Shown here: in pieces, positions 1-59,052 of the stretch
Layout: each line of letters begins with the position of its first letter
Position numbering within the stretch: position 1 is the stretch's first letter
Source: a virus
Virus record (IMG/VR): IMGVR_UViG_3300045684_000013
Location: 1 to 64,000 of that record
Length of the DNA: 64,000 bases
Reading direction: 5' to 3' (one strand)
Made by a program: the position numbers and the translations under genes
The notes under the pieces: model-generated
What the model was told of the DNA's origin: nothing
The model's database searches: none
The model's input: only the letters and a program-made list of their open reading frames with translations

Positions 1-2742
1 GGTTTTGCTGGCACACCCGACAGCATCAGCAGTGCATCAACAGTTGGCACACCAAGTCTTCAGGAAAATTACCAGCTGGCAGCAAACAGCATCAGCAGTG
101 CATCAACCGTTGGCAATCCTTCAACAGGTGGTGCATTAGGGCCAGACAGCATCAGCAGTGCATCAACCGTTGGGACGCCAACACTTGGCTTCACATCCCT
201 AGTGTTGCCACCAGTTTCAGGCAGAAAAAGCGATTTGCGGGTGACGGTAAATGGTGCTGACTATTCATTGCCAGACAATTGGCGCGAACTGTCCATCAAT
301 TATGATTTCAATGGGCTTGACTTGGTATCAAACAACCTGCCAAGTGAAATGGTGTATTGTGGAAAACAGCCCTATGCCGACCTGCAAACACGGGTAAATG
401 AAAATATATGTGGTGAAATAACCATCAATGTTGATGTCATTTGCTGGCCTGCCATTCCAGACTGGGAAAGCTTGTATGAAGCAAATGCAAAGCTGTCTGA
501 TGCAAGCTTCACATGTGGTGTGAATCCATCCTGTCAGGTGTCGATTGCTGCCACCAGATTCAATGCATTCACTGTGTTGGAGGCTGCAAGCACTGATGAA
601 ATATGCTTGCAGTGTTCTTCAGTATCAACACAAACAGACACGGTAAAAATCAGGCAGATTCAATCTGGCGGAAAGCATAAAGAAGTAGATGGCATTGCAG
701 ATGTCACGGCGTGTTTCCTGCCAATTGATGAACTTATTGCAGGGCTGGTTGATGAATTGGGCTTTACTTCAGGCAGTGGCATTCCACAGGGTGTGTGGGC
801 ATACGATTTTCACCACAATGTGAACAGGCTGACCATACCAGACACCAGTGACACCACCATCAGCGTCACGGTCACTTCCTTATGGGGAACACAGCACATT
901 GCCACAGTCAATTTCATTGGTGGTGAATCGCTTGATGACCGTGCTGAACTGGTTCAGAAATCCTTGCTGCTTCGTACCTATGGTGGCACATCTGCCCTTG
1001 GTTTCAGCCCTGTGATGAATCAGGTTTTTCATGATATATCTGCAATTTGGGCTGATTCTGGAAATAATAATATTTCACCAGCCATTGACAGTGTTGGTGT
1101 TGGCAATAGAGCATCAGGACAGCTTGACATCATCACTGATTGGCCTGTTGAATCAATCATTGCAATTGGTGATGTGAATGGCCTTTTTGCAGTCAGTGAA
1201 TTGCAGCCGTACAGGTATGGGCTTGGAAGAATGATGTTTTCAACCAATGGCCTGCTGTCTGATGCAACTTGTATGTCATGGGCAGAATTGAAGGGCTTTA
1301 TGACCTGTGTTCACCCAACTGTATTTGTGCCCACAGATAAAAATTTCACTTATGCTGGCTATGATGAATATTTCAACAGCCAGACATTGGCGGTCACACA
1401 GCCAGCATTGCAGCCAAGGTCAGTAAAGTGGAAAATAAGGGAAGATATTCAGCATGCAAAAGGCCTTTTCGGCCAGCGTTCCATTCTGGAAAATGTTGAA
1501 GAAGCAGACAGTGAATGGAAATGGTATGGGAATGAAGTGAACCTGCACACGGGCTTGACAGGCATTGCATCAGGGCCATATTTTGTTGCGGGCAATGGCC
1601 TGCCAGCAAATGATGTTGTTGTGCATACGGTTGGCGCAAGTGAAGCAGGGCCAGCCTTTTTGCGTGGTGCTGTAATAATCACAAACAATGCGGCCTGTGC
1701 AGCAGAAATCACATTTCAGTTGTACAGGAATACAGCAACAGCAGCAAACCTTCTTTACGACACATCCACAAAAGGTGATGTATCAGCAGGCCAGACGGTG
1801 AATTTGAATTTGGGTGCGGCTTTGGATAATAGTGTTATTCCCTCACTGAATCCATTGATGAAGACCAGCACGATTGTTGGCAATGAACCAGTTTGCTTGA
1901 ATGTTGGTGATCAGCTTATATTAAGGATTGAAGTGCTGAATCCAACTGGCTGCACAGACCTTGGCGTCACATTCAGTCCGGGACCAGTCACAAACCTAAA
2001 AAATCCTGATTGGAGGTATGAAACAACTGAAGCAGATGAGGGCTGGCCATTGATCACTGATGAAACAGCATTTGTTGACTTTGAACCATATTATGACTTC
2101 ACTGATTTTAGCAGTTGTGTTGGCATCAGGGATTGTGAATTATCAGAATCATTTTATACGGGTGTGGGCTATGCCTTTACACAGCAACTGGAAGCATTGA
2201 ATGACTATGGTGAAACTGTTTTCGTTACCTTCAGGGCACCAACTGGCCTGAATGATGGCACCATAAACAATGGCGATGATCAAACATGGATGTTTGAAAG
2301 GCAGTGGTATTTCAACACGCTTGGAACGCCACCAAACTGTTTTGATGAAAGGATTGTGAGCTATTATTACCACAACATGATAATTCAACACCCTTGGATT
2401 GCATCAGAATGGGCCAAATATGTGCCATCAAACTTTGCGGGTGACAGATGGGTTTACACCAATGAAATCACATCAACTGGTGGTGGAGGCTTGGAACCAA
2501 CTGTAAATTCAGCAGGCAGCAATTATTTGCCTGACACTGGCCTGATACCAAAGGCGCATTCAAGGGTGAAGCTGTATGAAATGGAAGACTGCCACACGCT
2601 TCTGAATTATGTTTTTCGTGGGCTTGAAAAGGCAGCACAATTTTCCAACTGTGGAAATGGCACAGTGGTTGGAATAATCCGTAAAATGTCAAAGCAGATT
2701 GATGGCCAAGGCCTGACAACATTCATAATTGAAGCAGAATGA
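1..2742 (+). CDS. Distal tail / baseplate-like structural protein (5' end outside window)
   Basis: The reading frame is open from base 1, so the true start lies upstream of the window. At least 913 codons are present. The N-terminal part has three copies of a Ser/Thr-rich motif, SISSASTVG(T/N)P, encoded by a 33-bp DNA repeat. The rest is beta-rich with many Asn, Thr and scattered Cys. The C-terminus ends in a compact segment with the pattern G-x-V-x-G-I-I-x-K with G-L-T-T-F near the end, a style common in phage tail hub or distal tail proteins. It is followed, with ATGA overlap, by another small gene and more structural genes. If the map is circular it lies just downstream of the tape measure at the other end, where baseplate genes are expected. 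No enzymatic domain was recognised, so the assignment rests on context. Confidence 0.6.
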   Translation, partial: GFAGTPDSISSASTVGTPSLQENYQLAANSISSASTVGNPSTGGALGPDSISSASTVGTPTLGFTSLVLPPVSGRKSDLRVTVNGADYSLPDNWRELSINYDFNGLDLVSNNLPSEMVYCGKQPYADLQTRVNENICGEITINVDVICWPAIPDWESLYEANAKLSDASFTCGVNPSCQVSIAATRFNAFTVLEAASTDEICLQCSSVSTQTDTVKIRQIQSGGKHKEVDGIADVTACFLPIDELIAGLVDELGFTSGSGIPQGVWAYDFHHNVNRLTIPDTSDTTISVTVTSLWGTQHIATVNFIGGESLDDRAELVQKSLLLRTYGGTSALGFSPVMNQVFHDISAIWADSGNNNISPAIDSVGVGNRASGQLDIITDWPVESIIAIGDVNGLFAVSELQPYRYGLGRMMFSTNGLLSDATCMSWAELKGFMTCVHPTVFVPTDKNFTYAGYDEYFNSQTLAVTQPALQPRSVKWKIREDIQHAKGLFGQRSILENVEEADSEWKWYGNEVNLHTGLTGIASGPYFVAGNGLPANDVVVHTVGASEAGPAFLRGAVIITNNAACAAEITFQLYRNTATAANLLYDTSTKGDVSAGQTVNLNLGAALDNSVIPSLNPLMKTSTIVGNEPVCLNVGDQLILRIEVLNPTGCTDLGVTFSPGPVTNLKNPDWRYETTEADEGWPLITDETAFVDFEPYYDFTDFSSCVGIRDCELSESFYTGVGYAFTQQLEALNDYGETVFVTFRAPTGLNDGTINNGDDQTWMFERQWYFNTLGTPPNCFDERIVSYYYHNMIIQHPWIASEWAKYVPSNFAGDRWVYTNEITSTGGGGLEPTVNSAGSNYLPDTGLIPKAHSRVKLYEMEDCHTLLNYVFRGLEKAAQFSNCGNGTVVGIIRKMSKQIDGQGLTTFIIEAE
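21..179 (+). repeat. Three 33-bp direct repeats inside tail gene
   Basis: Copies at 21-53, 87-119 and 147-179 encode SISSASTVGTP, SISSASTVGNP and SISSASTVGTP. Spacings are 66 and 60 bp, in frame. A 17-base piece (AGTGCATCAACCGTTGG) recurs inside an unrelated gene near 47110. Confidence 0.85.
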
Positions 2743-7790: not shown

Positions 7791-8114
7791 TTAACGGGAA
7801 AGGACACAATTGACAGTTCTGGCAGGGTGGTCATTGCCAAATGGCTTGTAGTCTTCAATGATTTCCATGGTGAAGCCCAATGCTGACACCTTGGCTGCAA
7901 ATGTTTTCCACAGTCTTTCACTGTTGTTAAAGCGGATATACACTACATCCTGTGCATTGATTGCAGCATACATTTCAGGTCTTGTCTTCAGCGTCTGTGG
8001 CATGAAGCCAGCCTGAAGAAGATCAGCAGCACGGTGAACGGAAACGGTTGTGCCAATTGCGTGTGCTTTTGCAAGTTGGGTGATGGTGGCTGATGTTCTT
8101 TCGGGTGAAGTCAT
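7791..8114 (-). CDS. Hypothetical protein behind repeat promoter
   Basis: 107 aa. The start ATG at 8114 follows the leader ACACAACAACATCAAA directly downstream of a minus-strand copy of the dispersed promoter repeat. Basic C-terminus, with an N-terminal Ser/Thr-rich helix and a segment AADLLQAGFMP that could be part of a helix-turn-helix, although this is weak. First gene of a three-gene unit running left to 6990. Confidence 0.6.
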   Translation of the reverse strand: MTSPERTSATITQLAKAHAIGTTVSVHRAADLLQAGFMPQTLKTRPEMYAAINAQDVVYIRFNNSERLWKTFAAKVSALGFTMEIIEDYKPFGNDHPARTVNCVLSR

Positions 8115-8127
8115 TTTGATGTTGTTG

Positions 8128-8210
8128 TGTCAAGCTTCATTGCCCAACACTTCAAAGATGCAAAAAGGTTTCAGACTTGCAAACATATTTGAAAATAGGT
8201 GCAAAAAAAA
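8128..8210 (-). promoter_or_regulatory. Dispersed promoter/5' UTR repeat, copy 1
   Basis: Minus-strand copy of the ~80-bp repeat. The -7-like box CATCTTTG is at 8153-8160 and is followed by the conserved UTR GTGTTGGGCAATGAAGCTTG. It drives the gene starting at 8114. Lies just downstream of the terminator at 8203-8234. Confidence 0.7.
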
Positions 8211-8234
8211 ATGAAGCACCAGTCAGATGCTTCA
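8203..8234 (-). terminator. Rho-independent terminator
   Basis: On the minus strand, TGAAGCA and TGCTTCA form a 7-bp stem with a 9-base loop, followed by a run of nine T. It ends the unit transcribed from the right through 8268. Confidence 0.75.
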
Positions 8235-8267
8235 TTCAGGCCTGATGTTGACCAGTGCTTGCAGGTG

Positions 8268-9875: not shown

Positions 9876-11006
9876 TTAAAGGGCACCACATGCCTGACCT
9901 TCTGCAAAGGCACCAACTGGCAGCTGCCAGACAGATGAAGGCACCAGCACAGGTGTTGTGAATTCTTCTGTGGCCTGTTTCCACCAAAAGGCATCCACAT
10001 TCATTGGTGTGCCCTTGGCTGCAAATTCAATGATGTCTGTTTTGCGTTTTAAGGTGAAGCCAAGTTTTTCTTCAGTCATGGCAATGTTCATAATCTTGGA
10101 TTCATCATATTTTGCAATGGTGGCAAATACATCAGGACCATTGAAAATGTAGGTCTGACAGCTGCAACGTGACCAGCCACAGAAATATGCAGGATGCGCC
10201 ACCACACCATGTGCCTTCATTTCATCCCACACCTGCTGTTCCGGCCAGTCAATGACAGCCCTGAACTGAATCACTTCACGGTTGAATTTTGGGCTGTCAG
10301 TGGCATGTAATTCAGCTTTCAGATATTTTGCACGGTTGGCTGATTCTTCACGTCTTTCACCAGTCAGCACCAGCACCTGTGCATCTTTGGCAAACATCTT
10401 TCTGATGACCGTTTTGCACACATCAATCTTCACCACACTGCTGCACCATCTTGATGCCAAGTCAGCTGCAATGGCTGGAAATTTGCCACGGGTGCTGCTG
10501 CCTGCATTGGCAGCCACTTTGATGAATTCGCCACCTTCTTCAGCCTGATAAAAGACATCCTGAAGGCCTTCATTTTTCCGGTTGATTTCACGCTGTATGC
10601 CACCAGCCCTGAAGGAATAAAGCAAGGGCAGGCCAAAGGCCTTGGCAAAGGCTTCACAATAGCTGTCTGTTCCTTTCCAATCCCAAATGTTGCCACCTTT
10701 GCCATCCACCAAATGGTGCATCAGAACAACACGTGACATATCAATGCCACGGTTGATCAAATCAAGCACCATGGCAACAGAATCCTTTCCACCACTGAAA
10801 CACACCACAATGGCAGCATCAGTCTGGTGCAGCAGGTATTCAGCACGATCAATTGTATCTGTGCCAATGGCTGCCTTCAGGTCATGAATTTTCTGAAGCG
10901 TTTCATTGGTTGCCGCCAAGTTGCCTGCTGTTGATTCTTCCTTTGCCTGCTTTCTTAGTGTGGCAAGCTGCTTGGTGTTGGTTCTGATGGTCTGAATTGA
11001 TGTCAT
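9876..11006 (-). CDS. PAPS reductase family (PP-loop) protein
   Basis: 376 aa. The PP-loop SGGKDS at residues 71-76 binds ATP or adenylyl-sulfate in this family. TGERREES at about 215-222 and HPAYFCGWSRCSC at about 271-283 match conserved motifs of PAPS reductase/DndC-like proteins; Cys188, 276, 281 and 283 could hold a 4Fe-4S cluster. An N-terminal helical extension of about 55 residues precedes the catalytic core. Phage members of this family have been linked to sulfur assimilation or to DNA phosphorothioation through DndC, but no other dnd gene is present here, so the substrate is unknown. The leader carries an intercistronic hairpin followed by ACAACATCAACATC. Confidence 0.85.
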   Translation of the reverse strand: MTSIQTIRTNTKQLATLRKQAKEESTAGNLAATNETLQKIHDLKAAIGTDTIDRAEYLLHQTDAAIVVCFSGGKDSVAMVLDLINRGIDMSRVVLMHHLVDGKGGNIWDWKGTDSYCEAFAKAFGLPLLYSFRAGGIQREINRKNEGLQDVFYQAEEGGEFIKVAANAGSSTRGKFPAIAADLASRWCSSVVKIDVCKTVIRKMFAKDAQVLVLTGERREESANRAKYLKAELHATDSPKFNREVIQFRAVIDWPEQQVWDEMKAHGVVAHPAYFCGWSRCSCQTYIFNGPDVFATIAKYDESKIMNIAMTEEKLGFTLKRKTDIIEFAAKGTPMNVDAFWWKQATEEFTTPVLVPSSVWQLPVGAFAEGQACGAL

Positions 11007-11042
11007 GATTTGTTGTTATTGATGTTGATGTTGTGGAGGAAT

Positions 11043-11066
11043 GCAGGCCACCTGAAGGCAGCCTGC
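11043..11066 (-). other. Intercistronic hairpin before PAPS-reductase gene
   Basis: On the minus strand GCAGGCTGCC and GGTGGCCTGC form a stem without a T-run, followed by ATTCCTCCACAACATCAAC. Almost the same hairpin plus leader occurs at 49561-49610 on the plus strand, so the unit is a duplicated module. Confidence 0.6.
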
Positions 11067-11077
11067 TGTGTGTTAGC

Positions 11078-11215
11078 TTATTTGCAAAGCTTAATGAAAG
11101 TCCAGCCCATTTCTTTTGCCAATGCTTTTGCTTCTTCAGTAGAACTGATATAGCTAACTTTGAATGTGCTGGTGAATCCGTTTGCATCTTTTTGTGAAAA
11201 TTTTGCCCTTGTCAT
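11078..11215 (-). CDS. 45-aa hypothetical protein behind repeat promoter
   Basis: MTRAKFSQKDANG to KLCK, then TAA. Start ATG 11215 follows the leader CAACATCAACATC immediately downstream of promoter-repeat copy 2. Its placement exactly where every other repeat copy has its gene supports real coding. First gene of the transcript containing the PAPS-reductase gene. Confidence 0.55.
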   Translation of the reverse strand: MTRAKFSQKDANGFTSTFKVSYISSTEEAKALAKEMGWTFIKLCK

Positions 11216-11231
11216 GATGTTGATGTTGTTT

Positions 11232-11315
11232 TGTCAAGCTTCATTGCCCAACACTTCAAAGATGCAAAAAAGGTTTCACACTTGCAAGCATATTTGAAAA
11301 TAAATGCAAAAAAAA
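11232..11315 (-). promoter_or_regulatory. Dispersed promoter/5' UTR repeat, copy 2
   Basis: Minus-strand copy with the CATCTTTG box and conserved GTGTTGGGCAATGAAGCTTG UTR. It sits directly next to the perfect terminator hairpin at 11316-11338 and leads into the 45-aa gene. Confidence 0.7.
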
Positions 11316-11343
11316 GTGGCCAGCACTGTGCTGGCCACTTTTT
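11308..11343 (-). terminator. Bidirectional rho-independent terminator
   Basis: GTGGCCAGCAC and GTGCTGGCCAC form a perfect 11-bp stem around one base. It is flanked by eight A on the left and five T on the right, so it can act in both directions. It ends the minus-strand lipoprotein transcript and insulates promoter copy 2. Confidence 0.85.
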
Positions 11344-11358
11344 CCAAGCCGGGATGTG

Positions 11359-15600: not shown

Positions 15601-15617
15601 CAAATATACATTTTTTT
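15601..15617 (-). promoter_or_regulatory. Candidate minus-strand promoter, A7 + TATATTTG
   Basis: Minus strand: A7, then TG, then TATATTTG (15608-15601), a perfect -7 consensus of Bacteroidota. It points at the gene starting at 15578. No clear -33 TTTG at ideal spacing. Confidence 0.5.
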
Positions 15618-27259: not shown

Positions 27260-27289
27260 GGCTGGTCAGCGATGATCAGCCTTTTTTTT
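27260..27289 (+). terminator. Rho-independent terminator
   Basis: GGCTGGTCA and TGATCAGCC pair with one G-T wobble, followed by eight T that merge with the start of promoter repeat copy 3. It ends the fibre operon. Confidence 0.75.
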
Positions 27290-27362
27290 GCATTTATTTT
27301 CAAATATGTTTGCAAGCCTGAAACCTTTTTTGCATCTTTGAAGTGTTGGGCAATGAAGCTTG
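27282..27362 (+). promoter_or_regulatory. Dispersed promoter/5' UTR repeat, copy 3
   Basis: Plus-strand copy. TTTG at 27309-27312 lies 20 bases before CATCTTTG at 27333-27340, the spacing of Bacteroidota -33/-7 elements. It leads through the conserved UTR to the gene at 27394. Confidence 0.7.
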
Positions 27363-27393
27363 GCAGTTCATTCACATCAAATACATCAAAAAA

Positions 27394-27684
27394 ATGGAAA
27401 TCATTTTACAAATTATCATCAATGCCCTGCCTTGGATGCAAGCCAATTTTGAAAAAGAAAAAGCATCGTTCATGAAAAAGGAATTGGACGAAATGAAAAA
27501 GCTGTTCATTGATATTTCAGCCCTTGACAGTGAAGAAAAAGCCATCAAGTGGCTGGAATCAGAAGAAGCAAAAGAGATGAAAGCAGGTGGAAACCTTAGC
27601 CGGAAAATTCAAATCAGCTTCATTCTTGTGAAATACAAGATTGCACAAAAAAAAGTCAGCCAATTGGTTGACTTTTTTTTGTGA
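27394..27684 (+). CDS. Small helical protein behind promoter repeat
   Basis: 96 aa, start at ATG 27394 after the ATACATCAAAAAA leader of promoter copy 3. Helical and charged, with a short hydrophobic N-terminus (MEIILQIIINALPW). The last codons lie inside a terminator hairpin at 27655-27680. No function recognised. Confidence 0.6.
   Translation: MEIILQIIINALPWMQANFEKEKASFMKKELDEMKKLFIDISALDSEEKAIKWLESEEAKEMKAGGNLSRKIQISFILVKYKIAQKKVSQLVDFFL
27655..27680 (+). terminator. Terminator overlapping gene end
   Basis: GTCAGCC and GGTTGAC form a stem around AATT (one wobble pair), followed by eight T. The stem and T-run encode the last residues of the 27394 gene. Confidence 0.7.
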
Positions 27685-27702: not shown

Positions 27703-27710
27703 CGTATATT
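27703..27710 (+). promoter_or_regulatory. Candidate promoter, CGTATATT class
   Basis: CGTATATTGG followed by GAAAC and CAACATCAATAT, matching the downstream layout of the motifs at 34766 and 43839. It precedes the membrane-protein gene at 27750. The A-tract is replaced by a T-tract here. Confidence 0.4.
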
Positions 27711-33051: not shown

Positions 33052-34763
33052 GCAACATACAACCAAGATGGTACCAGATGCCATCAATCAGCAGTCTGCT
33101 GGATGGCTGGAATCTGCAACAGCCTGAAGCATCTGCATACAAAAGGCAGTTGCTTCAGGCACCAACTGGTGCAGGTAAGACATTCATTTTCAATTATATT
33201 GCTGATTGTCTGATTGAATCAGGTCATGCACCAGTTCTGGTGTTGTGCCATAGGGTGGAACTGGTCAAGCAGGCTGCACAAAAATTCTGGCAATGGTTTG
33301 GCGGTCACGCTGATATTATAAAAAGTGGTATGGGCAGGTCACGTTCATTCCCTTTCAAGGTGGCCAGCATCCAAACACTGCATGCCAGACTGAAGAAAAA
33401 AACGGTTGAAGAAATATTTGGCATTGTGCCCACTTTGGTCATTGTTGATGAATGCCACCACCTGAAAGCCAAAAGCTGGCTGGAAGTAATAAACGCATTC
33501 CCTGATTCGCTTTTGCTTGGTGTGTCAGCAACGCCAATCAGAATGGACGGCACAGGTTTCAGTGAATGTTTTGACAGGCTTGTGCCATTCATACAGGTCA
33601 GGCAGCTTGAAGACATCTGGAAGGCTGACAGCAGCAGGCTGACAGGGCTGGTGCCTGACTTGATTCATCAGGTGAAATTGATACCAGATGCCAGAAAGCT
33701 GAAGGTCAAGGCTGGTGAATATGACATGAAACCACTGAATGAAATTCTGAACACAGATGAAACGTGTCAGACCGTTGTTAACTTCTGGAAAGCGCACGGT
33801 GGAGGTGATGAACAAACCATTGCATTTTGCATCAAGGGTGGCAAGGGAATTGAAAAAGGCCATCATCAAAGGTTGGCAGAAACCTTCATCAAAAATGGTG
33901 TCACTGCTGCATATTTGGATGGCAAAACAGATGACATTTTGCGTGACCAGATTTTGAAGGGCTTTGAAAGAAAAGAAATTCAGGTTTTGTGCAACATTGA
34001 AATTGCAACAGAAGGCTTTGATGTGCCCAACATTGGCTGCACCTTGATGTGCAGGCCAACAAAGTCGCTGGCATTGCATATTCAGATGGCAGGACGCGGC
34101 AAGAGGCCATCAGCAGGCAAAAACGTCCACATTATGATGGATTTCGTGGGCAATTGCCTGCTTCATGGCAGGCCAAATGAAGAAAGAAGCTGGACGCTTG
34201 AAGGCATTAAGAAAAAGAAGAAGAAAAAGACACTTGTTGATGTGGATGGCCAATTGATGGACATTGATGATTTTGAAAACATGGATGTTGACACCACTGG
34301 CATTCCAATGACTTATGAAATAATTGAAATTGAATCTGATGACTTCAGGTTTGCAGGATTCAAAGAAATCCTTTTCAATGTCAGGGAAAATTACAGAAAT
34401 CCAGATGATGCAATAAAGGCTGCATTGGCACAATGGTACGCTGAAGTGAACCACAGCCCTGACATCATTGAACTGACAGCAATTGCACGTCACGTTTTTC
34501 CAGATCAAAACAAAGCAAATTGTGAGCGTTGGGCATGGTCAAGATATGAGAAATTCAAGCTAATTAATCAAATGATTGACACCTGTCAGAATGTCAGGCA
34601 GGCAGGCGACATCATTGATGCCATTGATGCTGTATTTGTTCAGCAGGGAGATGTACAAATAAAGGTGCCATTGGCTGGCCATTTTGGATTGAAGACCAAG
34701 GTCACAAATATGATCAGAAGCAGATGGCTGCCTGATTATGTTCCAAGTGCAGCAACTAGATAA
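33048..34763 (+). CDS. SF2 DNA helicase (DEAD/DEAH-like)
   Basis: 571 aa. Walker A APTGAGKT at 38-45, Walker B DECHH at 134-138, motif III SATP at 160-163, and motif VI QMAGRGKR. It has the two RecA domains expected of a phage helicase of the UvsW/RecG-like SF2 type. A Lys-rich run of eight residues follows the helicase core, then a long C-terminal extension with an acidic part. Would unwind branched or recombining DNA during replication. Confidence 0.85.
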   Translation: MSNIQPRWYQMPSISSLLDGWNLQQPEASAYKRQLLQAPTGAGKTFIFNYIADCLIESGHAPVLVLCHRVELVKQAAQKFWQWFGGHADIIKSGMGRSRSFPFKVASIQTLHARLKKKTVEEIFGIVPTLVIVDECHHLKAKSWLEVINAFPDSLLLGVSATPIRMDGTGFSECFDRLVPFIQVRQLEDIWKADSSRLTGLVPDLIHQVKLIPDARKLKVKAGEYDMKPLNEILNTDETCQTVVNFWKAHGGGDEQTIAFCIKGGKGIEKGHHQRLAETFIKNGVTAAYLDGKTDDILRDQILKGFERKEIQVLCNIEIATEGFDVPNIGCTLMCRPTKSLALHIQMAGRGKRPSAGKNVHIMMDFVGNCLLHGRPNEERSWTLEGIKKKKKKKTLVDVDGQLMDIDDFENMDVDTTGIPMTYEIIEIESDDFRFAGFKEILFNVRENYRNPDDAIKAALAQWYAEVNHSPDIIELTAIARHVFPDQNKANCERWAWSRYEKFKLINQMIDTCQNVRQAGDIIDAIDAVFVQQGDVQIKVPLAGHFGLKTKVTNMIRSRWLPDYVPSAATR

Positions 34764-38762: not shown

Positions 38763-39199
38763 TGGAAGCAGTAAAAATTGAACATCAGCAATCAGAAGTG
38801 GGTGGCACTTATACTCCACATGAAGCCACGGTAAATGGCACCAACTACCCTGCACAACTGCCTGACAATGACAGGGCAGTGCTGGCCTTGGTTCGTGGTA
38901 AGTTTTATACATTGCCACTGGTTGTCAGGCACGCAGACCGTAGCTGGCAATTTCATAGTTATGGACGATGGAAGTGTATAGAAAATGGCACCAACTACCC
39001 TGCACAACTGCCCGACAATGACAGGGCAGTGCTGGCCTTGGTTCGTGGTAAGTTTTATACATTGCCACTGGTTGTCAGGCACGCAGACCGTAGCTGGCAA
39101 TTTCATAGTTATGGACGATGGAAGTGTATAGAAATTACAGAAAATGTGCTGTCATGGGCTGAATTGCCTAATGAATGGGCTGAAGAAATGAACATCTAA
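38762..39199 (+). CDS. DUF551-like protein with tandem-duplicated module
   Basis: 145 aa from ATG 38762. Two consecutive 50-residue copies of a module (NGTNYPAQLPDNDRAVLALV to SYGRWKCIE) are followed by a short SWAELPNEW tail. The module plus tail resembles the phage DUF551 family, which normally has one copy. The DNA repeats are nearly identical, so duplication is recent. The protein's role is unknown. Confidence 0.6.
   Translation: MEAVKIEHQQSEVGGTYTPHEATVNGTNYPAQLPDNDRAVLALVRGKFYTLPLVVRHADRSWQFHSYGRWKCIENGTNYPAQLPDNDRAVLALVRGKFYTLPLVVRHADRSWQFHSYGRWKCIEITENVLSWAELPNEWAEEMNI
38834..39133 (+). repeat. 150-bp near-identical tandem duplication
   Basis: Copies 38834-38983 and 38984-39133 differ at one visible position, CTGCCTGAC versus CTGCCCGAC, which is silent. 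In-frame duplication inside the DUF551-like gene. Confidence 0.9.
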
Positions 39200-46611: not shown

Positions 46612-47217
46612 ATGACATCAAGTTTTCCACTGATACAAGAAAAAGAATTCAAAGGCCGTGTCACATCCAATGGCCTTTTTGGAACCAGCCTGAATGCACC
46701 AGTTGCAGCAATTTTTCATGGTGAAAGAATGTCACTTGCCATTGAAGTCATTTTTGTGCCAGCTGGCTGGCTGGCAAAATACAATCTTTCAATTTTCAAT
46801 GATGGCAGCAGGCCATCAACCAGTTCTGAGCCATTTTTTTTGATCGCAGACAGCAAGCCAAGCAAAGATGAATCAATGATTGATGCTGCAAAGCGTGCAT
46901 TGGATTTTGTTGCTGCTTCATCAAGGCCAGATGCAAATGAAGTTCGTGATGAAATCGGTGAAGCCATCGGCATCATTCTGAAGCCAATGGTGAAGCCAAT
47001 GGTGAAGGCTGGTGATGATGAATCATTTGAAGACTTCCTGAAGGCATCTGCAAGCATTCCAGATGATTCAGGAGCCAATCAGGAGAAAAAAAACAAAATG
47101 GATGTCACCAGTGCATCAACCGTTGGCACACCAGCACTGACCTTTGAGCCAGAAACAAAGCCGGAAAAGAAAACAATCAGGCAGTCAGGCAGGAAGAAGG
47201 GCAGCGAAAAAAAATAG
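46612..47217 (+). CDS. Hypothetical protein sharing tail motif
   Basis: 201 aa. The N-terminal half looks like a small single-stranded DNA/RNA-binding or ssb-like fold (GRVTSNGLFGTSLNAPVAAIF), not recognised. Near the C-terminus it carries TSASTVGTPAL, encoded by a 17-base match to the tail-gene repeats at 1-180, and then a very basic end. Followed by a terminator. Confidence 0.55.
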   Translation: MTSSFPLIQEKEFKGRVTSNGLFGTSLNAPVAAIFHGERMSLAIEVIFVPAGWLAKYNLSIFNDGSRPSTSSEPFFLIADSKPSKDESMIDAAKRALDFVAASSRPDANEVRDEIGEAIGIILKPMVKPMVKAGDDESFEDFLKASASIPDDSGANQEKKNKMDVTSASTVGTPALTFEPETKPEKKTIRQSGRKKGSEKK

Positions 47218-47244
47218 ATGATCCTTTTTTGATGTGATGTTGTT

Positions 47245-47280
47245 GGCCACAGGGTGATGCCTGTGGCCTTTTTCATTTTT
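47245..47280 (+). terminator. Terminator of cassette A
   Basis: GGCCACAGG and CCTGTGGCC form a perfect 9-bp stem with loop GTGATG, followed by TTTTTCATTTTTT. The same hairpin occurs at 49118 and 50478. Confidence 0.85.
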
Positions 47281-47356
47281 TTGCATTTATTTTCAAATAT
47301 GCTTGCAAGTATGAAACCTTTTTTGCATCTTTGAAGTGTTGGGCAATGAAGCTTGA
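47274..47356 (+). promoter_or_regulatory. Dispersed promoter/5' UTR repeat, copy 4
   Basis: CATCTTTG at 47326-47333; CTTG 20 bases upstream. The conserved UTR ends GAAGCTTGAC, then CAACAACATCAACATC to ATG 47375. Confidence 0.75.
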
Positions 47357-47374
47357 CGCAACAACATCAACATC

Positions 47375-48592
47375 ATGAAATCTTTTAGCCAAACATCAGA
47401 AATCACTAAGCAGTATTATATCAGCACAGGCATGAAACATTGCTTTTATACGCTGTGGTACTGGATGGTCACACCAGTAAAATCAAGCGAAGTGTATATC
47501 AAAAACATTTCGCTTGACCGTGAAAGCACGCTTGAATGGATTATTGAAACATTTGAAGACATCAGCAATAGAGAAGAAGCAGAAGCCATGATTGACATGG
47601 ATGCACCATGCAAGCCAGCTGACAGAATGTACACAATTGAAGGGCATGAAGCCATCTGGTTTGGCAAGCACAAGGGCACAGCTATTGTTGATTTTCCTGA
47701 AGATGAAACCACATACCTTTGCTGGCTGGTCAATGAAGCTGCCAAAGGTGGATATTGGAAGACATTGTCACCTGAAAAAGAATATATAAATTTTCGTGGC
47801 CAGCGAATCACAGAAGAATATTGCGACATAGCTGACAAGCCATGGAAGAAAAAAATTGTCAGGGCTGCTGAACTGGAAGCCATCAGACGTGGTGCGGTTT
47901 ATGTTTCTGGCAATCCTTGGAAGTTGGAAGATGAAAGCACTGTTTTGCTTTATGGCAGCCAGCTTGAAAAGCACATTGAAAAGGTGAACAAAGCACGTGA
48001 AATCAGAATGACCAGCAAGCATGTTGGTACAGTTGGTGAATCAGCTGACCTTGTTCTAACTGTCAACAATATCATCACAGGTGAAGGTGAATTTGGCACA
48101 TGGAACCTGTATGTGATGCAGGATGGCATTGGTAATGTATTCACCAAATTTGGCACCATTGGGTGGAAATTTGTTACCAATTGGGCTGAAAATGACTGGT
48201 CATTTGAAGTGAAAAAAGGCCACGTGCTAAAGCTGAATGCAGACATCAAAAATCATGACATTCGTGAAGGTGTGGCACAGACGCAAATTGGCAGAGTCAG
48301 GAAGCAAAAAGCTGACAAATCTTTTGCAGCACGTGCCAAGGCACATGATGCAGCATTTGAGGCATCAAAAAATGACAGGAAGATTGCAGCTATTGTTGAA
48401 AAAATAAAGGGCACCGGCATCAGCCATGATGAATTGGCTGTTGTGCTTGATGCTGCTGGCAATCCTGAAAAAGTGTATAAATTGGATGCAGTTGAAAAGG
48501 CCAATGAAAACAGGCTTGCTTTTCCTAGGTCAAACAGCCAGCCAATCAACTTTTTACTTGCCAGCAAATGGCTGAAGATAATTGGCAAATGA
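47375..48592 (+). CDS. DUF3820/ExoX-C-like and OB-like domain protein
   Basis: 405 aa, first and longest accessory gene behind a promoter repeat. Residues about 90-125 (IWFGKHKGTAIVDFP, TYLCWLV) match the ExoX C-terminal/DUF3820 module, GKxKG...P..YL.W. Residues about 215-305 (HVGTVGESADLVLTV to AQTQIGRVRK) have an OB-fold-like strand pattern. The protein may bind or process DNA. The remainder is helical. Confidence 0.6.
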   Translation: MKSFSQTSEITKQYYISTGMKHCFYTLWYWMVTPVKSSEVYIKNISLDRESTLEWIIETFEDISNREEAEAMIDMDAPCKPADRMYTIEGHEAIWFGKHKGTAIVDFPEDETTYLCWLVNEAAKGGYWKTLSPEKEYINFRGQRITEEYCDIADKPWKKKIVRAAELEAIRRGAVYVSGNPWKLEDESTVLLYGSQLEKHIEKVNKAREIRMTSKHVGTVGESADLVLTVNNIITGEGEFGTWNLYVMQDGIGNVFTKFGTIGWKFVTNWAENDWSFEVKKGHVLKLNADIKNHDIREGVAQTQIGRVRKQKADKSFAARAKAHDAAFEASKNDRKIAAIVEKIKGTGISHDELAVVLDAAGNPEKVYKLDAVEKANENRLAFPRSNSQPINFLLASKWLKIIGK

Positions 48593-48602
48593 TTAATAAC
48601 AG

Positions 48603-48629
48603 GGCAGGCCAGCATTCATCTGGCCTGCC
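48603..48629 (+). other. Intercistronic hairpin
   Basis: GGCAGGCCAG and CTGGCCTGCC pair perfectly around a 7-base loop, not followed by a T-run, and lead into ACAACATCAGATAAGA before ATG 48646. It supports that start over earlier ATGs. Confidence 0.6.
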
Positions 48630-48645
48630 ACAACATCAGATAAGA

Positions 48646-49095
48646 ATGGTATCTCAAAAGACGATCACACAAGTCACATTTAATGCCACAAAAGGTGAAT
48701 TCAGGGCCACTGATTTTGCTGGAAGGCAAACAGAAAAGCTTTTCATTTTCCACAGAAAAAGATTGCGTTTGTCAGCTGTTGGCCAAATTGAAAGGTTTGG
48801 CAAACAAGGTTTTCTTTGGCAGTCTTTTTGCTGGCCCGAACAAATCGAAACTGTCAGGGCAGGAATGATTGAACTTGCAGCCGCAAACCTTGCCAGCCAA
48901 ATGCTCACTGTTCACAGGCTTTCAGAAGGCCTAAAGAAGCACGCTGTTGACACTTCAGGTGATTTGGTGTCTGACATCATGTTTGCCATTAAGGATTGCG
49001 GAGAATGCAAGCATGAAGGTGTCAGCTGGAATGATGGTGAATTGTCAGAATTGGTGGCAGACGTGATTGCAGGCAATGTGAAAAAATATCAATAA
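48646..49095 (+). CDS. Hypothetical protein
   Basis: 149 aa, start at ATG 48646 after the hairpin/leader. Helical, with CGEC in the C-terminal third. Same transcript as the 47375 gene. Unknown function. Confidence 0.6.
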   Translation: MVSQKTITQVTFNATKGEFRATDFAGRQTEKLFIFHRKRLRLSAVGQIERFGKQGFLWQSFCWPEQIETVRAGMIELAAANLASQMLTVHRLSEGLKKHAVDTSGDLVSDIMFAIKDCGECKHEGVSWNDGELSELVADVIAGNVKKYQ

Positions 49096-49117
49096 TATAT
49101 TTTTGATGTATGTTGTT

Positions 49118-49155
49118 GGCCACAGGGTGATGCCTGTGGCCTTTTTCATTTTTTT
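49118..49155 (+). terminator. Terminator of cassette B
   Basis: Identical hairpin to the one at 47245 (9-bp GGCCACAGG / CCTGTGGCC stem) followed by TTTTTCATTTTTTT. Confidence 0.85.
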
Positions 49156-49230
49156 GCATTTATTTTCAAATATGCTTGCAAGTGTGAAACCTTTTTTGCA
49201 TCTTTGAAGTGTTGGGCAATGAAGCTTGAC
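49149..49230 (+). promoter_or_regulatory. Dispersed promoter/5' UTR repeat, copy 5
   Basis: Almost identical to copy 4, with CATCTTTG and the GAAGCTTGACACAACAAC leader to ATG 49248. Confidence 0.75.
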
Positions 49231-49247
49231 ACAACAACATCAACATC

Positions 49248-49547
49248 ATGACAAAATCAGAATTCAAAGCACTGCAAAAAGACATCAATATCAGCCTGGA
49301 TGGAAAGAAAAACATCCAGCCATACAGGAAGGCAAAAACCAGAATTGAAGAAGCGCAGCAGACACACAATGCGCTGAAAATGCAGTATATCAAAGAAGGC
49401 AAATTCATCAACAGGCTGAATGCCATGCATGATACAGAATATGACTTGGAAAGCCTTTGGCACCATGTTGACAGCAGGGAAGGGCAAAGAAGCTTCACAG
49501 GTGCAGACTACAACACCCTTGCACTGATGATGCTGAACATTGACTAA
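49248..49547 (+). CDS. Hypothetical protein
   Basis: 99 aa. Helical, basic N-terminal half and a Tyr/Asp-rich middle. Behind promoter copy 5; accessory-gene position suggests a host-takeover or immunity role, but no motif was seen. Confidence 0.55.
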   Translation: MTKSEFKALQKDINISLDGKKNIQPYRKAKTRIEEAQQTHNALKMQYIKEGKFINRLNAMHDTEYDLESLWHHVDSREGQRSFTGADYNTLALMMLNID

Positions 49548-49560
49548 CCATTGACACACA

Positions 49561-49584
49561 GCAGGCTGCCTTCAGGCGGCCTGC
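49561..49584 (+). other. Intercistronic hairpin (duplicate of 11043)
   Basis: GCAGGCTGCC and GGCGGCCTGC, followed by ATTCCTCCACAACATCAAC before ATG 49613. Nearly identical to the minus-strand hairpin at 11043. Confidence 0.65.
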
Positions 49585-49612
49585 ATTCCTCCACAACATC
49601 AACATCAATCAA

Positions 49613-50107
49613 ATGAAAGTCAGAATTCAGAAAAGAAACGGGAAGAAGGCCCAAAAGCAGGTGAAGCAAATCTGCATCAACACAGTCATCAATGGCAACC
49701 AGTATTTCAAGGCCACATCAGCCAACCTGACACTTTTGCTGGCCATGGCAGATGCCATTGCAGGTGAATGGCTTCAGCTGCAAATTGATGGCACACTGAC
49801 AGCCAGTGGCAAAAAGATTGGCACCACTGTCATTGAAGTCATGGTTGATGGTGTGTGGCATGATGTCAGCCCTGTGCAGCTTGAATTGCATGCACTGGTG
49901 GCCAGCAAGCTGGCCAGCCTGTCTGACACCATCATTGAAGGATTTGTGCAGTCAGGGCCAATTGCAGGCTTCACAATGCCTTCAATGTCTGGTCATGTGC
50001 TTGGCCTTGAATCAGTAAGCTGGTTTGATAGGCAATACAACACCACAGAACACAAGAATTTGATGGAAGCCAATATGCACCTGAATGAAATGTTGGTGCC
50101 AGATTAA
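49613..50107 (+). CDS. Hypothetical protein
   Basis: 164 aa. Basic N-terminus, then beta strands alternating with Ala/Leu-rich helices (LTLLLAMADAIAGEWLQL). Ends near VPD. Same transcript as 49248. Unknown. Confidence 0.55.
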   Translation: MKVRIQKRNGKKAQKQVKQICINTVINGNQYFKATSANLTLLLAMADAIAGEWLQLQIDGTLTASGKKIGTTVIEVMVDGVWHDVSPVQLELHALVASKLASLSDTIIEGFVQSGPIAGFTMPSMSGHVLGLESVSWFDRQYNTTEHKNLMEANMHLNEMLVPD

Positions 50108-50145
50108 TCAGTCATTTTTTGCAAAAACGCAAAACATTCAAGATC

Positions 50146-50454
50146 ATGACATTTGAAGAATACCAGAAAGAAGAAGAAGCAATTGAGGCTGAAGCATTAA
50201 GAGCAAAAAGAAAGCTGCTTCATTCGTTTGCCATCAAAAACCAGAAGTATAAAGTGGGTGACATACTGATGTGGAAAATGGCAAACATTGTCATCAGGGT
50301 AGAAAAAGTGACGTTTGGTGCTTGGAGGCTAAGGAATGGCATACCTTCAACAGCTTTTTACCATGGTACGCGATTAAGGAAAGACCTGAAAACATACACA
50401 AAGAAGACAGTAGGCCATATTGCACAGCCAAACGTGTCAGCAAAGTTGAACTAA
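50146..50454 (+). CDS. Hypothetical protein
   Basis: 102 aa from ATG 50146 with leader AAAACATTCAAGATC. Acidic N-terminal helix then a basic SH3/OB-like strand region (YKVGDILMWKMANIVIRVEKV). Unknown. Confidence 0.55.
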   Translation: MTFEEYQKEEEAIEAEALRAKRKLLHSFAIKNQKYKVGDILMWKMANIVIRVEKVTFGAWRLRNGIPSTAFYHGTRLRKDLKTYTKKTVGHIAQPNVSAKLN

Positions 50455-50477
50455 AATATATCTTGATGTATGTTGTT

Positions 50478-50515
50478 GGCCACAGGGTGATGCCTGTGGC
50501 CTTTTTCATTTTTTT
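50478..50515 (+). terminator. Terminator of cassette C
   Basis: Third copy of the GGCCACAGG / CCTGTGGCC hairpin followed by TTTTTCATTTTTT. Confidence 0.85.
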
Positions 50516-50593
50516 TTTGCATTTATTTTCAAATATGTTTGCAAGTCTGAAACCTTTTTTGCATCTTTGAAGTGTTGGGCAACGATGCCTGAC
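50511..50593 (+). promoter_or_regulatory. Dispersed promoter/5' UTR repeat, copy 6
   Basis: TTTGC and CATCTTTG elements as in copy 3; the UTR variant ends GATGCCTGAC instead of GAAGCTTGAC. Leads to ATG 50610. Confidence 0.7.
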
Positions 50594-50609
50594 AAACAAC
50601 ATCATCAAA

Positions 50610-50813
50610 ATGGAATCCATCAGCAATAAAAAACTTGAAGTAGGAATGATTGTCAATACTTTTGACCTGCATGCAGGTGCCTACGTCAACACCACAATCA
50701 CAAAGATTGGATCACAGCGGAAAAGAAATGGTATCTGGTGCGTTGAAATATTTTTTCATGAAATCGGTCAATCAGCTTGGCTGATGACATCAGGAAAGAC
50801 AATGGCGCTATAA
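50610..50813 (+). CDS. 67-aa hypothetical protein
   Basis: Start ATG 50610 after AACATCATCAAA. Beta-rich small protein. Behind promoter copy 6 and before a terminator, so it is an isolated single-gene cassette. Unknown. Confidence 0.55.
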   Translation: MESISNKKLEVGMIVNTFDLHAGAYVNTTITKIGSQRKRNGIWCVEIFFHEIGQSAWLMTSGKTMAL

Positions 50814-50837: not shown

Positions 50838-50866
50838 GCCACTGATTGAACATCAGTGGCTTTTTT
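50838..50866 (+). terminator. Rho-independent terminator
   Basis: GCCACTGAT and ATCAGTGGC form a perfect 9-bp stem, followed by six T. The adjacent GGTATATTGG (50867-50876) may be the -7 element of the next gene. Confidence 0.85.
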
Positions 50867-54466: not shown

Positions 54467-54553
54467 GCATGTTGCATTGGCTTCATGGCCAGCCTTTCTG
54501 CAAAAGTTGCTGGTTCGCTCATTACTGAACAAACGCAATGGATGGTGAAAGGC

Positions 54554-54636
54554 TTTTTTTACGCTTATTTTCAAATGTGCTTGCAAGTATGAAACTTTTT
54601 TTTGCATCTTTGAAGTGTTGGGCAATGAAGCTTGAC
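54554..54636 (+). promoter_or_regulatory. Dispersed promoter/5' UTR repeat, copy 7
   Basis: Slightly diverged start (ACGCTTATTTTC) but intact CATCTTTG and GAAGCTTGAC elements; leads to ATG 54654. Confidence 0.7.
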
Positions 54637-54653
54637 ACAACAACATCATCAAA

Positions 54654-55091
54654 ATGAAAAATTCACAGACCAGCAACAGCATTGAAGACATTTTTGGCAG
54701 CGTTATTCATGAAGATTCTTTCAACACGCGCATTCAGTCAGGTGAATACATGGATGTCATTGATACCATCAGCCTGAACCAGCTGGCCAAAGAAGCAGGC
54801 ATCAAGTTTGCAGTTGCTGTTGATGCTGGCATGTTCAGTGCCATCAAAAACTTCAGCCCTGCATTATGCCAGTCAGTTTCAGGGCGCGTTTGGGATTTGT
54901 TCACCATGTTCACCAATGCAGCCAAAGGCAGGATCAGTGCAAAGGTTGAACAGCTTGAATGTGGTCAGGCAATGACTTTTGATTTTATCATGACACAAGG
55001 CAGATCAAAATGGGTTACAGTTAAGGCTATTGTTGGCCCCAAAGGGCCACATGATGCTGCACCATGCATCAGCTTTCATTTTGTACGCTAA
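54654..55091 (+). CDS. DUF6573-like protein
   Basis: 145 aa behind promoter copy 7. The N-terminal half (DIFGSVIHEDSFNTRIQSGE, LAKEAGIKFAVAVDAGMFSAI) resembles the phage/plasmid DUF6573 family. C-terminal part is a beta-sheet region. Function unknown. Confidence 0.6.
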   Translation: MKNSQTSNSIEDIFGSVIHEDSFNTRIQSGEYMDVIDTISLNQLAKEAGIKFAVAVDAGMFSAIKNFSPALCQSVSGRVWDLFTMFTNAAKGRISAKVEQLECGQAMTFDFIMTQGRSKWVTVKAIVGPKGPHDAAPCISFHFVR

Positions 55092-55113
55092 TCATCAGGC
55101 AGGCTGTTAATCA

Positions 55114-55144
55114 GGCAGGCTGTTAATCAGGCAGCCTGCCTTTT
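55114..55144 (+). terminator. Terminator embedded in small tandem repeats
   Basis: GGCAGGCTG and CAGCCTGCC pair and are followed by TTTT. The upstream bases repeat TAATCAGGCAGGCTGT two to three times, so slippage could make or remove the hairpin. Confidence 0.7.
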
Positions 55145-58232: not shown

Positions 58233-58342
58233 TTTCATTTTATGAATTCTTGGCCAAGCTGAAACAGCTGAATGACAATGACAGTGCCAGAAAGAAAATG
58301 GAAAGTGATTTGAAGCAGCAAAGGAAGCAGGCAAAAGGCTGA
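57390..58342 (+). CDS. Tail-assembly chaperone, -1 frameshift form (gpGT-like)
   Basis: Predicted 317-aa fusion: 188 codons in frame 0, then -1 at 57953, then 129 codons to TGA 58342. The -1 frame opens after a stop at 57935-57937, just before the slippery run of nine A, and stays open for 390 bases with a coherent protein sequence (GKYTLTAADD to QQRKQAKG). Alternatively the last 58 residues could be a separate gene starting at ATG 58166. Confidence 0.6.
57944..57957 (+). promoter_or_regulatory. Slippery site for programmed -1 frameshift
   Basis: Nine A followed by five G, read as AAA AAA AAG GGG in the zero frame, contains the classical A-AAA-AAG heptamer. A purine-rich downstream section follows; a stimulatory stem-loop was not verified. 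Confidence 0.6.
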
Positions 58343-58362
58343 CCAGCAATGGCCAGCTTTTT
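58338..58362 (+). terminator. Possible terminator
   Basis: GCTGACC and GGCCAGC can pair with one mismatch and are followed by five T. It ends the chaperone transcript before promoter copy 8. Confidence 0.5.
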
Positions 58363-58446
58363 CATTTATTTTCAACTTTTTTCAAATATGCTTGCAAGTC
58401 TGAAACCTTTTTTGCATCTTTGGAGTGTTGGGCAATGATGCCTGAC
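58359..58446 (+). promoter_or_regulatory. Dispersed promoter/5' UTR repeat, copy 8
   Basis: Carries a small internal insertion near its start and reads CATCTTTGGAGTG; UTR ends GATGCCTGAC, as in copy 6. Leads through CAACATCAACATCAA to ATG 58465. Confidence 0.7.
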
Positions 58447-58464
58447 AAACAACATCAACATCAA

Positions 58465-58995
58465 ATGAAGGCCATCAACAATTTTTCCAGCGATTTTCTG
58501 ACAAGCATGTTTGACAATGCGCGGCATGACATCAGCCTTGCCATTGAAAATGCACCATTCAATAATGGCATTGGCGGTGTGTTCGTCACTGACACAATTT
58601 TTGGACTGCTTGACATTGAATTCACTGAAGCAACTGGTGTGTTTGTCTTCAGAATCAACAATGATGGCAAGGATTTTTTTACCACTGGCAGCCATTATGC
58701 AGCAATTGTTTTCCTGATGGCTGCTTATGACTATACATCAGAAGGTGATTTGACAGAAGAAGAAAAGCAGGATGTGGCCTATTTGGCAGGCATGGCAGCG
58801 AATTACAAAGGGCAGAAGCTTGTGCCACACCACTGCAAGCAGTTTGGCATGTTGATTGATGGTCAGGTTGGCGGGAACACTGTGAAGCTTGCCACATCGT
58901 GGCACAATGGCTTTCACAGGGTGAACCATTTGGCAGGTGATGCACTGCTGCGAAAGTGGGCAGAAGAAGACAGCCAGCCACATCAGGCAGGCTGA
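58465..58995 (+). CDS. Hypothetical protein
   Basis: 176 aa, between the tail chaperone and tape measure but on its own promoter copy, so likely an inserted accessory gene rather than a tail gene. Alpha/beta, with acidic patches and His-rich middle. Followed by a terminator. Unknown. Confidence 0.6.
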   Translation: MKAINNFSSDFLTSMFDNARHDISLAIENAPFNNGIGGVFVTDTIFGLLDIEFTEATGVFVFRINNDGKDFFTTGSHYAAIVFLMAAYDYTSEGDLTEEEKQDVAYLAGMAANYKGQKLVPHHCKQFGMLIDGQVGGNTVKLATSWHNGFHRVNHLAGDALLRKWAEEDSQPHQAG

Positions 58996-59020
58996 CTAGC
59001 AACGGGAAACCAGAATTGAA

Positions 59021-59052
59021 AACAGCTGACATGATTTGTCAGCTGTTTTTTT
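59021..59052 (+). terminator. Rho-independent terminator
   Basis: AACAGCTGAC and GTCAGCTGTT form a perfect 10-bp stem with a 7-base loop and a T-run. The adjoining TATATATTG may be the promoter for the tape measure gene. Confidence 0.85.

Follow-up and report, generated by a model that had tools for sequence, protein, structure and literature searches.

Promoter-early stem-loop (PeSL) cassettes have reportedly been described for T4-type phages, and lambdoid morons are genes that bring a promoter and a terminator of their own and are set between other genes. We know of no single repeated regulatory sequence shared by the classical morons. Shuffling of the PeSL type is documented for T4-type phages and has been suggested for one archaeal virus: the PeSL papers (Arbiol 2010; Comeau 2014) are cited in PMC4503421, and PMC3950731 reports for the haloarchaeal virus HGTV-1 a repeated TATA-box region with an inverted repeat, proposing PeSL-like shuffling. 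For Cluster K mycobacteriophages, the 13-bp element SAS is thought to act in translation (PMC3203893). Here, we analysed a window of 64,000 nucleotides, i.e. positions 1 to 64,000 of the IMG/VR record IMGVR_UViG_3300045684_000013, which represents a phage encoding a terminase, a tape-measure protein, a helicase and a Sak4-like protein.

A terminator-promoter-leader unit is repeated in eight intergenic regions

The terminator GGCCACAGGGTGATGCCTGTGGCC starts exactly at positions 47245, 49118 and 50478 and leads each time into a T-run and then a promoter core, reproducing the positions given in the original prediction. Over the full 66,406 bases of the record, this core, consisting of promoter and leader and spanning ~95-105 bp, is present in eight copies with identities of 80-99%; the plus strand carries six of them and the minus strand two. 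The 28-mer TTTTTTGCATCTTTGAAGTGTTGGGCAA occurs eight times at a maximum of three mismatches (minus strand: 8140, 11244; plus strand: 27326, 47319, 49192, 50555, 54598, 58408), shuffled sequences giving an expectation of zero. The closest pair of cores is formed by the copies at 49.15 kb (plus) and 11.3 kb (minus), being 99% identical over 106 nt, while the copies at 47 kb and 49 kb are 99% identical across 142 nt. Conservation sets in sharply at the T-run. The sequence 5' of it is 98-100% identical among the copies at 47, 49 and 50 kb and unrelated in the other five, and a terminator-like hairpin lies 5' of all eight cores, strong in six and weaker at 54.5 and 58.3 kb. As the copies at 47.2, 49.1 and 50.5 kb have the terminator in common, the entire intergenic region (152-157 bp) constitutes one repeated unit, which fills stop-to-start gaps of 157, 152 and 155 bp and is longer than the ~115 bp assumed before. 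All copies are placed between genes, none inside a gene. We regard the repeated terminator-promoter unit as confirmed.

The three copies with the common terminator are U4 (47224..47374, plus strand; terminator hairpin 47245-47268, promoter core 47276-47378, with the 5' hairpin and the CAACATCAACATC leader), U5 (49097..49247, plus strand; terminator 49118-49141, core 49149-49254) and U6 (50456..50609, plus strand; terminator 50478-50501, core 50512-50607, leader type B). Also on the plus strand are U3 (27260..27365; hairpin 27260-27281, then the core), U7 (54491..54660; a long, weaker hairpin at 54491-54553 with a z of -1.9, then the core) and U8 (58337..58463; hairpin ~58337-58357, core with leader type B), while U1 (8113..8237; hairpin ~8210-8237, core 8113-8209) and U2 (11209..11344; hairpin ~11315-11344, core 11209-11314) are encoded on the minus strand.

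Each unit shows the same order of parts, namely hairpin, T-run, an A/T-rich stretch, TTTG or CTTG, 19-20 nt, CATCTTTG, leader and ATG, with the T-run of the preceding hairpin being part of the core. Bacteroidota promoters recognized by sigmaABfr have the consensus TTTG at -33 and TAnnTTTG at -7 (PMC7366714, PMC6847099), and the -33 and -7 elements of the units with their spacing of 19-20 nt fit this consensus, save for position -12, where all eight copies have C; F. johnsoniae promoters almost invariably have T there (PMC6847099). By the numbering of PMC6847099 the predicted +1 is the G of GTTGGGC, and from there an RNA stem of 7-8 bp is predicted to be possible in all copies. Both leader types arrive at the same energy with different pairs (-11.3 and -11.2 kcal/mol); covariation in the stem is weak, with zero two-sided changes and three one-sided changes that keep the pairing, and an Rfam search gave no match. 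The leader is of the GTGTTGGGC... type and carries a CAACATC-type sequence before the ATG, its end being diverged in the 27.3-kb copy. The predicted make-up of terminator, promoter and leader is supported by these data; promoter activity, expression strength and hairpin function of the units we infer from the sequence.

Two further motifs were observed in the window. The sequence CAACATCA(ACATCA) is found shortly 5' of the start codon of many genes, whether a promoter unit is present or not (e.g. 27731, 34798, 38313, 41707 and 43880 on the plus and 12726 on the minus strand), and likely represents a translation leader free of a Shine-Dalgarno (SD) sequence. A second promoter-like class, GTATATT[TGA][GA], is located at 27704, 34774, 43848 and 50868 on the plus and at 15609 on the minus strand, in each case directly before an ORF, the ORFs encoding 299, 577 (Sak4-like), 196, 225 (ParB-like, before the terminase) and 97 aa.

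Unrelated genes follow the units

U1 is predicted to drive a 107-aa ORF (7791-8114), U2 a 45-aa ORF (11215-11078) and then a PAPS-reductase-like gene (11006-9876), U4 two ORFs of 405 aa (47375-48592) and 149 aa (48646-49095), and U5 three ORFs of 99, 164 and 102 aa. Four units form predicted monocistronic promoter-ORF-terminator cassettes at 27.3, 50.5, 54.6 and 58.4 kb: U3 with a 96-aa ORF (27394-27684), the 3' end of which overlaps the terminator hairpin, U6 with a 67-aa ORF (50610-50813; terminator ~50838-50866), U7 with a 145-aa ORF (54654-55091; terminator 55113-55141) and U8 with a 176-aa ORF (58465-58995; terminator 59018-59050). The U6 cassette lies 5' of the genes for the ParB-like protein and the terminase, whose own promoter-like site is GTATATTGG, and the U8 cassette stands directly before the tape-measure gene.

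The 14 ORFs located between a unit and the terminator that follows it were compared with each other, revealing no significant mutual similarity. The genes had been expected to be small and unrelated; they are mutually unrelated, but not all are small, one encoding 405 aa. Nearly all are ORFans, and a clear Pfam match was obtained for only one of the 14, namely the 376-aa gene at 9876-11006 (minus strand). It contains a PAPS reductase domain, its product showing partial similarity to DndC and BrxP and having sporadic phage relatives, the best with 40% identity in Pseudoalteromonas phage KB12-38; for the 405-aa protein, the matches are to PHROGs of unknown function. The genes with any annotation match are few and too sparse for a statistical claim of enrichment in accessory genes.

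The units resemble PeSLs but differ in promoter and genome type

As a control, the same self-comparison was applied to 50 kb of phage RB49, yielding repeated GCCGATCCGAAAGGGTCGGC-TTTTT...TTGACA...TATAAT...leader-ATG units of 77-82%, for example at 34420-34519 and 47670-47768 of locus L132. The units described here share with PeSLs the succession of terminator hairpin, T-run, promoter, short leader and ATG within ~100 bp, the direct joining of terminator hairpin and promoter (in all eight units here), the presence of several similar copies per genome before small hypothetical genes, and the unrelated, non-core nature of the genes behind them, as seen in the 14 genes compared. They differ in having a Bacteroidota promoter of the TTTG / nAnnTTTG type instead of the strong sigma-70-like early promoter of PeSLs, in carrying a stem-loop at the 5' end of the mRNA, where the +1 is predicted, and in copies being 80-99% alike compared to about 77-82% in the RB49 stretch. 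Furthermore, PeSLs are found in T4-type myoviruses, whereas the phage analysed here has a genome of 66 kb with no T4-type phage among the best terminase matches listed. From this comparison the units would work like PeSLs, yet they are not T4-type PeSLs, both the sigma-70 promoter and the T4-type genome being missing.

The other described systems resemble the units in part. HGTV-1, likened here to the units by description, likewise has a repeated promoter-like motif and an inverted repeat before many genes, but its promoter is archaeal. SAS/ESAS elements, as far as described in the accessible part of PMC3203893, are repeated intergenic elements before the start codons of differing gene families, some with inverted repeats, and a terminator-promoter unit is absent from that description; the 13-bp SAS element GGGATAGGAGCCC was found in none of the aligned units, which have CAACATCAACATC as leader. 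The genes behind U3, U6, U7 and U8 are comparable to morons, each having its own predicted promoter and terminator-like hairpin, which in part bears out the prediction of moron-like cassettes; here, in contrast to classical morons, the units are one repeated regulatory sequence. A limited literature search returned no account of units of this kind for Bacteroidota phages.

A duplicated regulatory frame suggests exchange of genes

A second repeated element of 56 nt, consisting of the hairpin GCAGGCTGCC/GGCGGCCTGC and the CAACATCAACATC leader, separates the 99-aa from the 164-aa ORF in U5 (49554-49609, plus strand) and, with 55/56 nt identical, the 45-aa ORF from the PAPS-reductase-like gene in U2 (11018-11073, minus strand). 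The cores of U2 and U5 are the most similar pair of all. The order core-ORF-element-ORF is found twice, 38 kb apart, with different genes, i.e. ORFs of 45 + 376 aa behind U2 and 99 + 164 aa behind U5. We regard this two-element frame, occurring twice around unrelated genes, as the best evidence for exchange; in its simplest reading the regulatory frame descends from one ancestor, the genes in it having been replaced. The 50.5-kb unit looks like a mosaic, having the terminator of the copies at 47 and 49 kb and a leader hairpin like that at 58.4 kb.

Four-gamete counts in the core revealed incompatible sites. Simulations lacking recombination gave a count at least as high in 168 of 1000 cases, which is not significant, and a tree uniting the three terminator-sharing copies was not rejected on the core sequence (AU p = 0.134). 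We infer recombination between the units and, these core tests not being significant, grade it as likely and no higher; gene shuffling between units is suggested rather than proven. The original prediction of a platform for gene exchange is partly supported, namely by the terminator/promoter/leader units, the unrelated genes, the monocistronic cassettes and the frame common to U2 and U5, and not by the core-only recombination tests.

Composite cassettes compared with alternative explanations

The phage has multiple copies of a unit with one architecture, unrelated genes behind them and a two-element frame that is present twice, enclosing different genes. We consider it reasonably probable that the units serve a Bacteroidota phage as composite transcription cassettes which have been duplicated, and whose shared sequence let genes swap or insert by homologous recombination. 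According to this model, the terminator would end the upstream transcript and its T-run would at the same time open a conserved promoter for the host RNA polymerase, composed of TTTG/CTTG at -33 and CATCTTTG at -7. The mRNA would start with a short stem-loop and continue into an unstructured CAACATC leader, from which translation would proceed without an SD sequence, so that any gene behind a unit would become an insulated, separately expressed cistron. Copies would arise by duplication, genes would be exchanged or inserted between copies by homologous recombination because of the homology of the units, and the Sak4-like annealing protein of the phage would probably aid this recombination.

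Long conserved promoters can be kept alike by selection as well, which counts against this explanation, as do the lack of a T at -12 and the non-significant core tests. The units might constitute an ordinary co-regulated promoter class, comparable to the sets of T7 or SPO1, having no role in gene gain; selection for a common regulator or time of expression would keep the copies alike, and the terminators would be routine operon ends. The unusual C at -12 common to all eight copies fits such a class, as do the non-significant recombination tests, and class-specific timing is made plausible by the GTATATTDG class, which precedes other genes, among them the Sak4-like gene and, in the terminase cluster, the ParB-like gene. 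However, spacer, T-run and the whole leader are conserved too, three copies have a non-promoter terminator and flank in common, and the second element of U2 and U5 is located 0.15-0.35 kb downstream, past an unrelated ORF, and is thereby not explained by selection on the promoter. We regard an ordinary promoter class as rather unlikely. Sharp boundaries, both orientations and a length of ~150 bp in three copies would also suit a small mobile, MITE-like repeat transposed into intergenic sites and carrying promoter and terminator by chance, and the ends of the 47-kb copy are complementary (TGATGTTGTTG left vs CAACAACATCA right). Yet the left arm is missing from five of the eight copies, the right arm corresponds to the general CAACATC leader, which also precedes many genes that have no unit, all copies are intergenic with none lying within a gene, and other viruses, plasmids and 395 Bacteroidota genomes yielded no match to the unit beyond short chance-like ones (21-36 nt in the Bacteroidota genomes), making a mobile repeat very improbable.

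If the composite-cassette explanation holds, finding the same architecture built on a Bacteroidota promoter in a 66-kb phage unrelated to T4 would imply that this route of gene gain has evolved more than once; the units would mark the locations of accessory genes in such phages and could be used as ready-made parts for gene expression in Bacteroidota. More tentatively, and with considerable doubt, some Bacteroidota phages may keep dedicated self-contained expression adaptors as docking sites for gaining and swapping accessory genes, an adaptor comprising terminator, promoter, mRNA 5' stem-loop and SD-free leader and forming a class separate from the core-gene promoters.

Genome, host and relatives of the phage

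A BT4734-like_N primase domain and terminase relatives in genome contigs, all from genomes titled as Bacteroidota members, point to a probable host within the Bacteroidota. The first and last 144 nt of the record are identical in 143/144 nt, suggesting a probably complete, circularly permuted genome of ~66.26 kb, listed as linear in IMG/VR, with the caveat that the overlap lies in a repeat-containing gene. The large protein spanning the record ends (window 1-186 and the end of the record) contains the peptide repeat SSASTVGTP, a related copy of which is found at 47095-47139 within a 201-aa protein (46612-47217). A tandem duplication of 150 nt, 99% identical, lies inside an ORF at 38833-39132.

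Relatives were searched with blastn against phage records (using 5 kb and the unit alone) and plasmids, with exact patterns of core and second element in viral and genome contigs, and with the terminase, 405-aa, Sak4-like and PAPS-reductase-like proteins as well as a terminase profile. These protein, DNA and pattern searches, which very near records may escape, found no relative close enough for comparing the genes between units in phage records, viral contigs, plasmids or genomes, the best terminase identities being 36% in viral/genome contigs and 38% in phage records. None of the 122 loci compared has a comparable multi-copy family, and besides the terminase only a ParB-like and one other protein gave matches there. 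The repeats of L045 and L046 were inspected and are not such units. At locus L009 a related terminase gene (10001-11167) contains six in-frame TAG codons reading through as Q, suggesting that the phage of L009 is probably stop-recoded.
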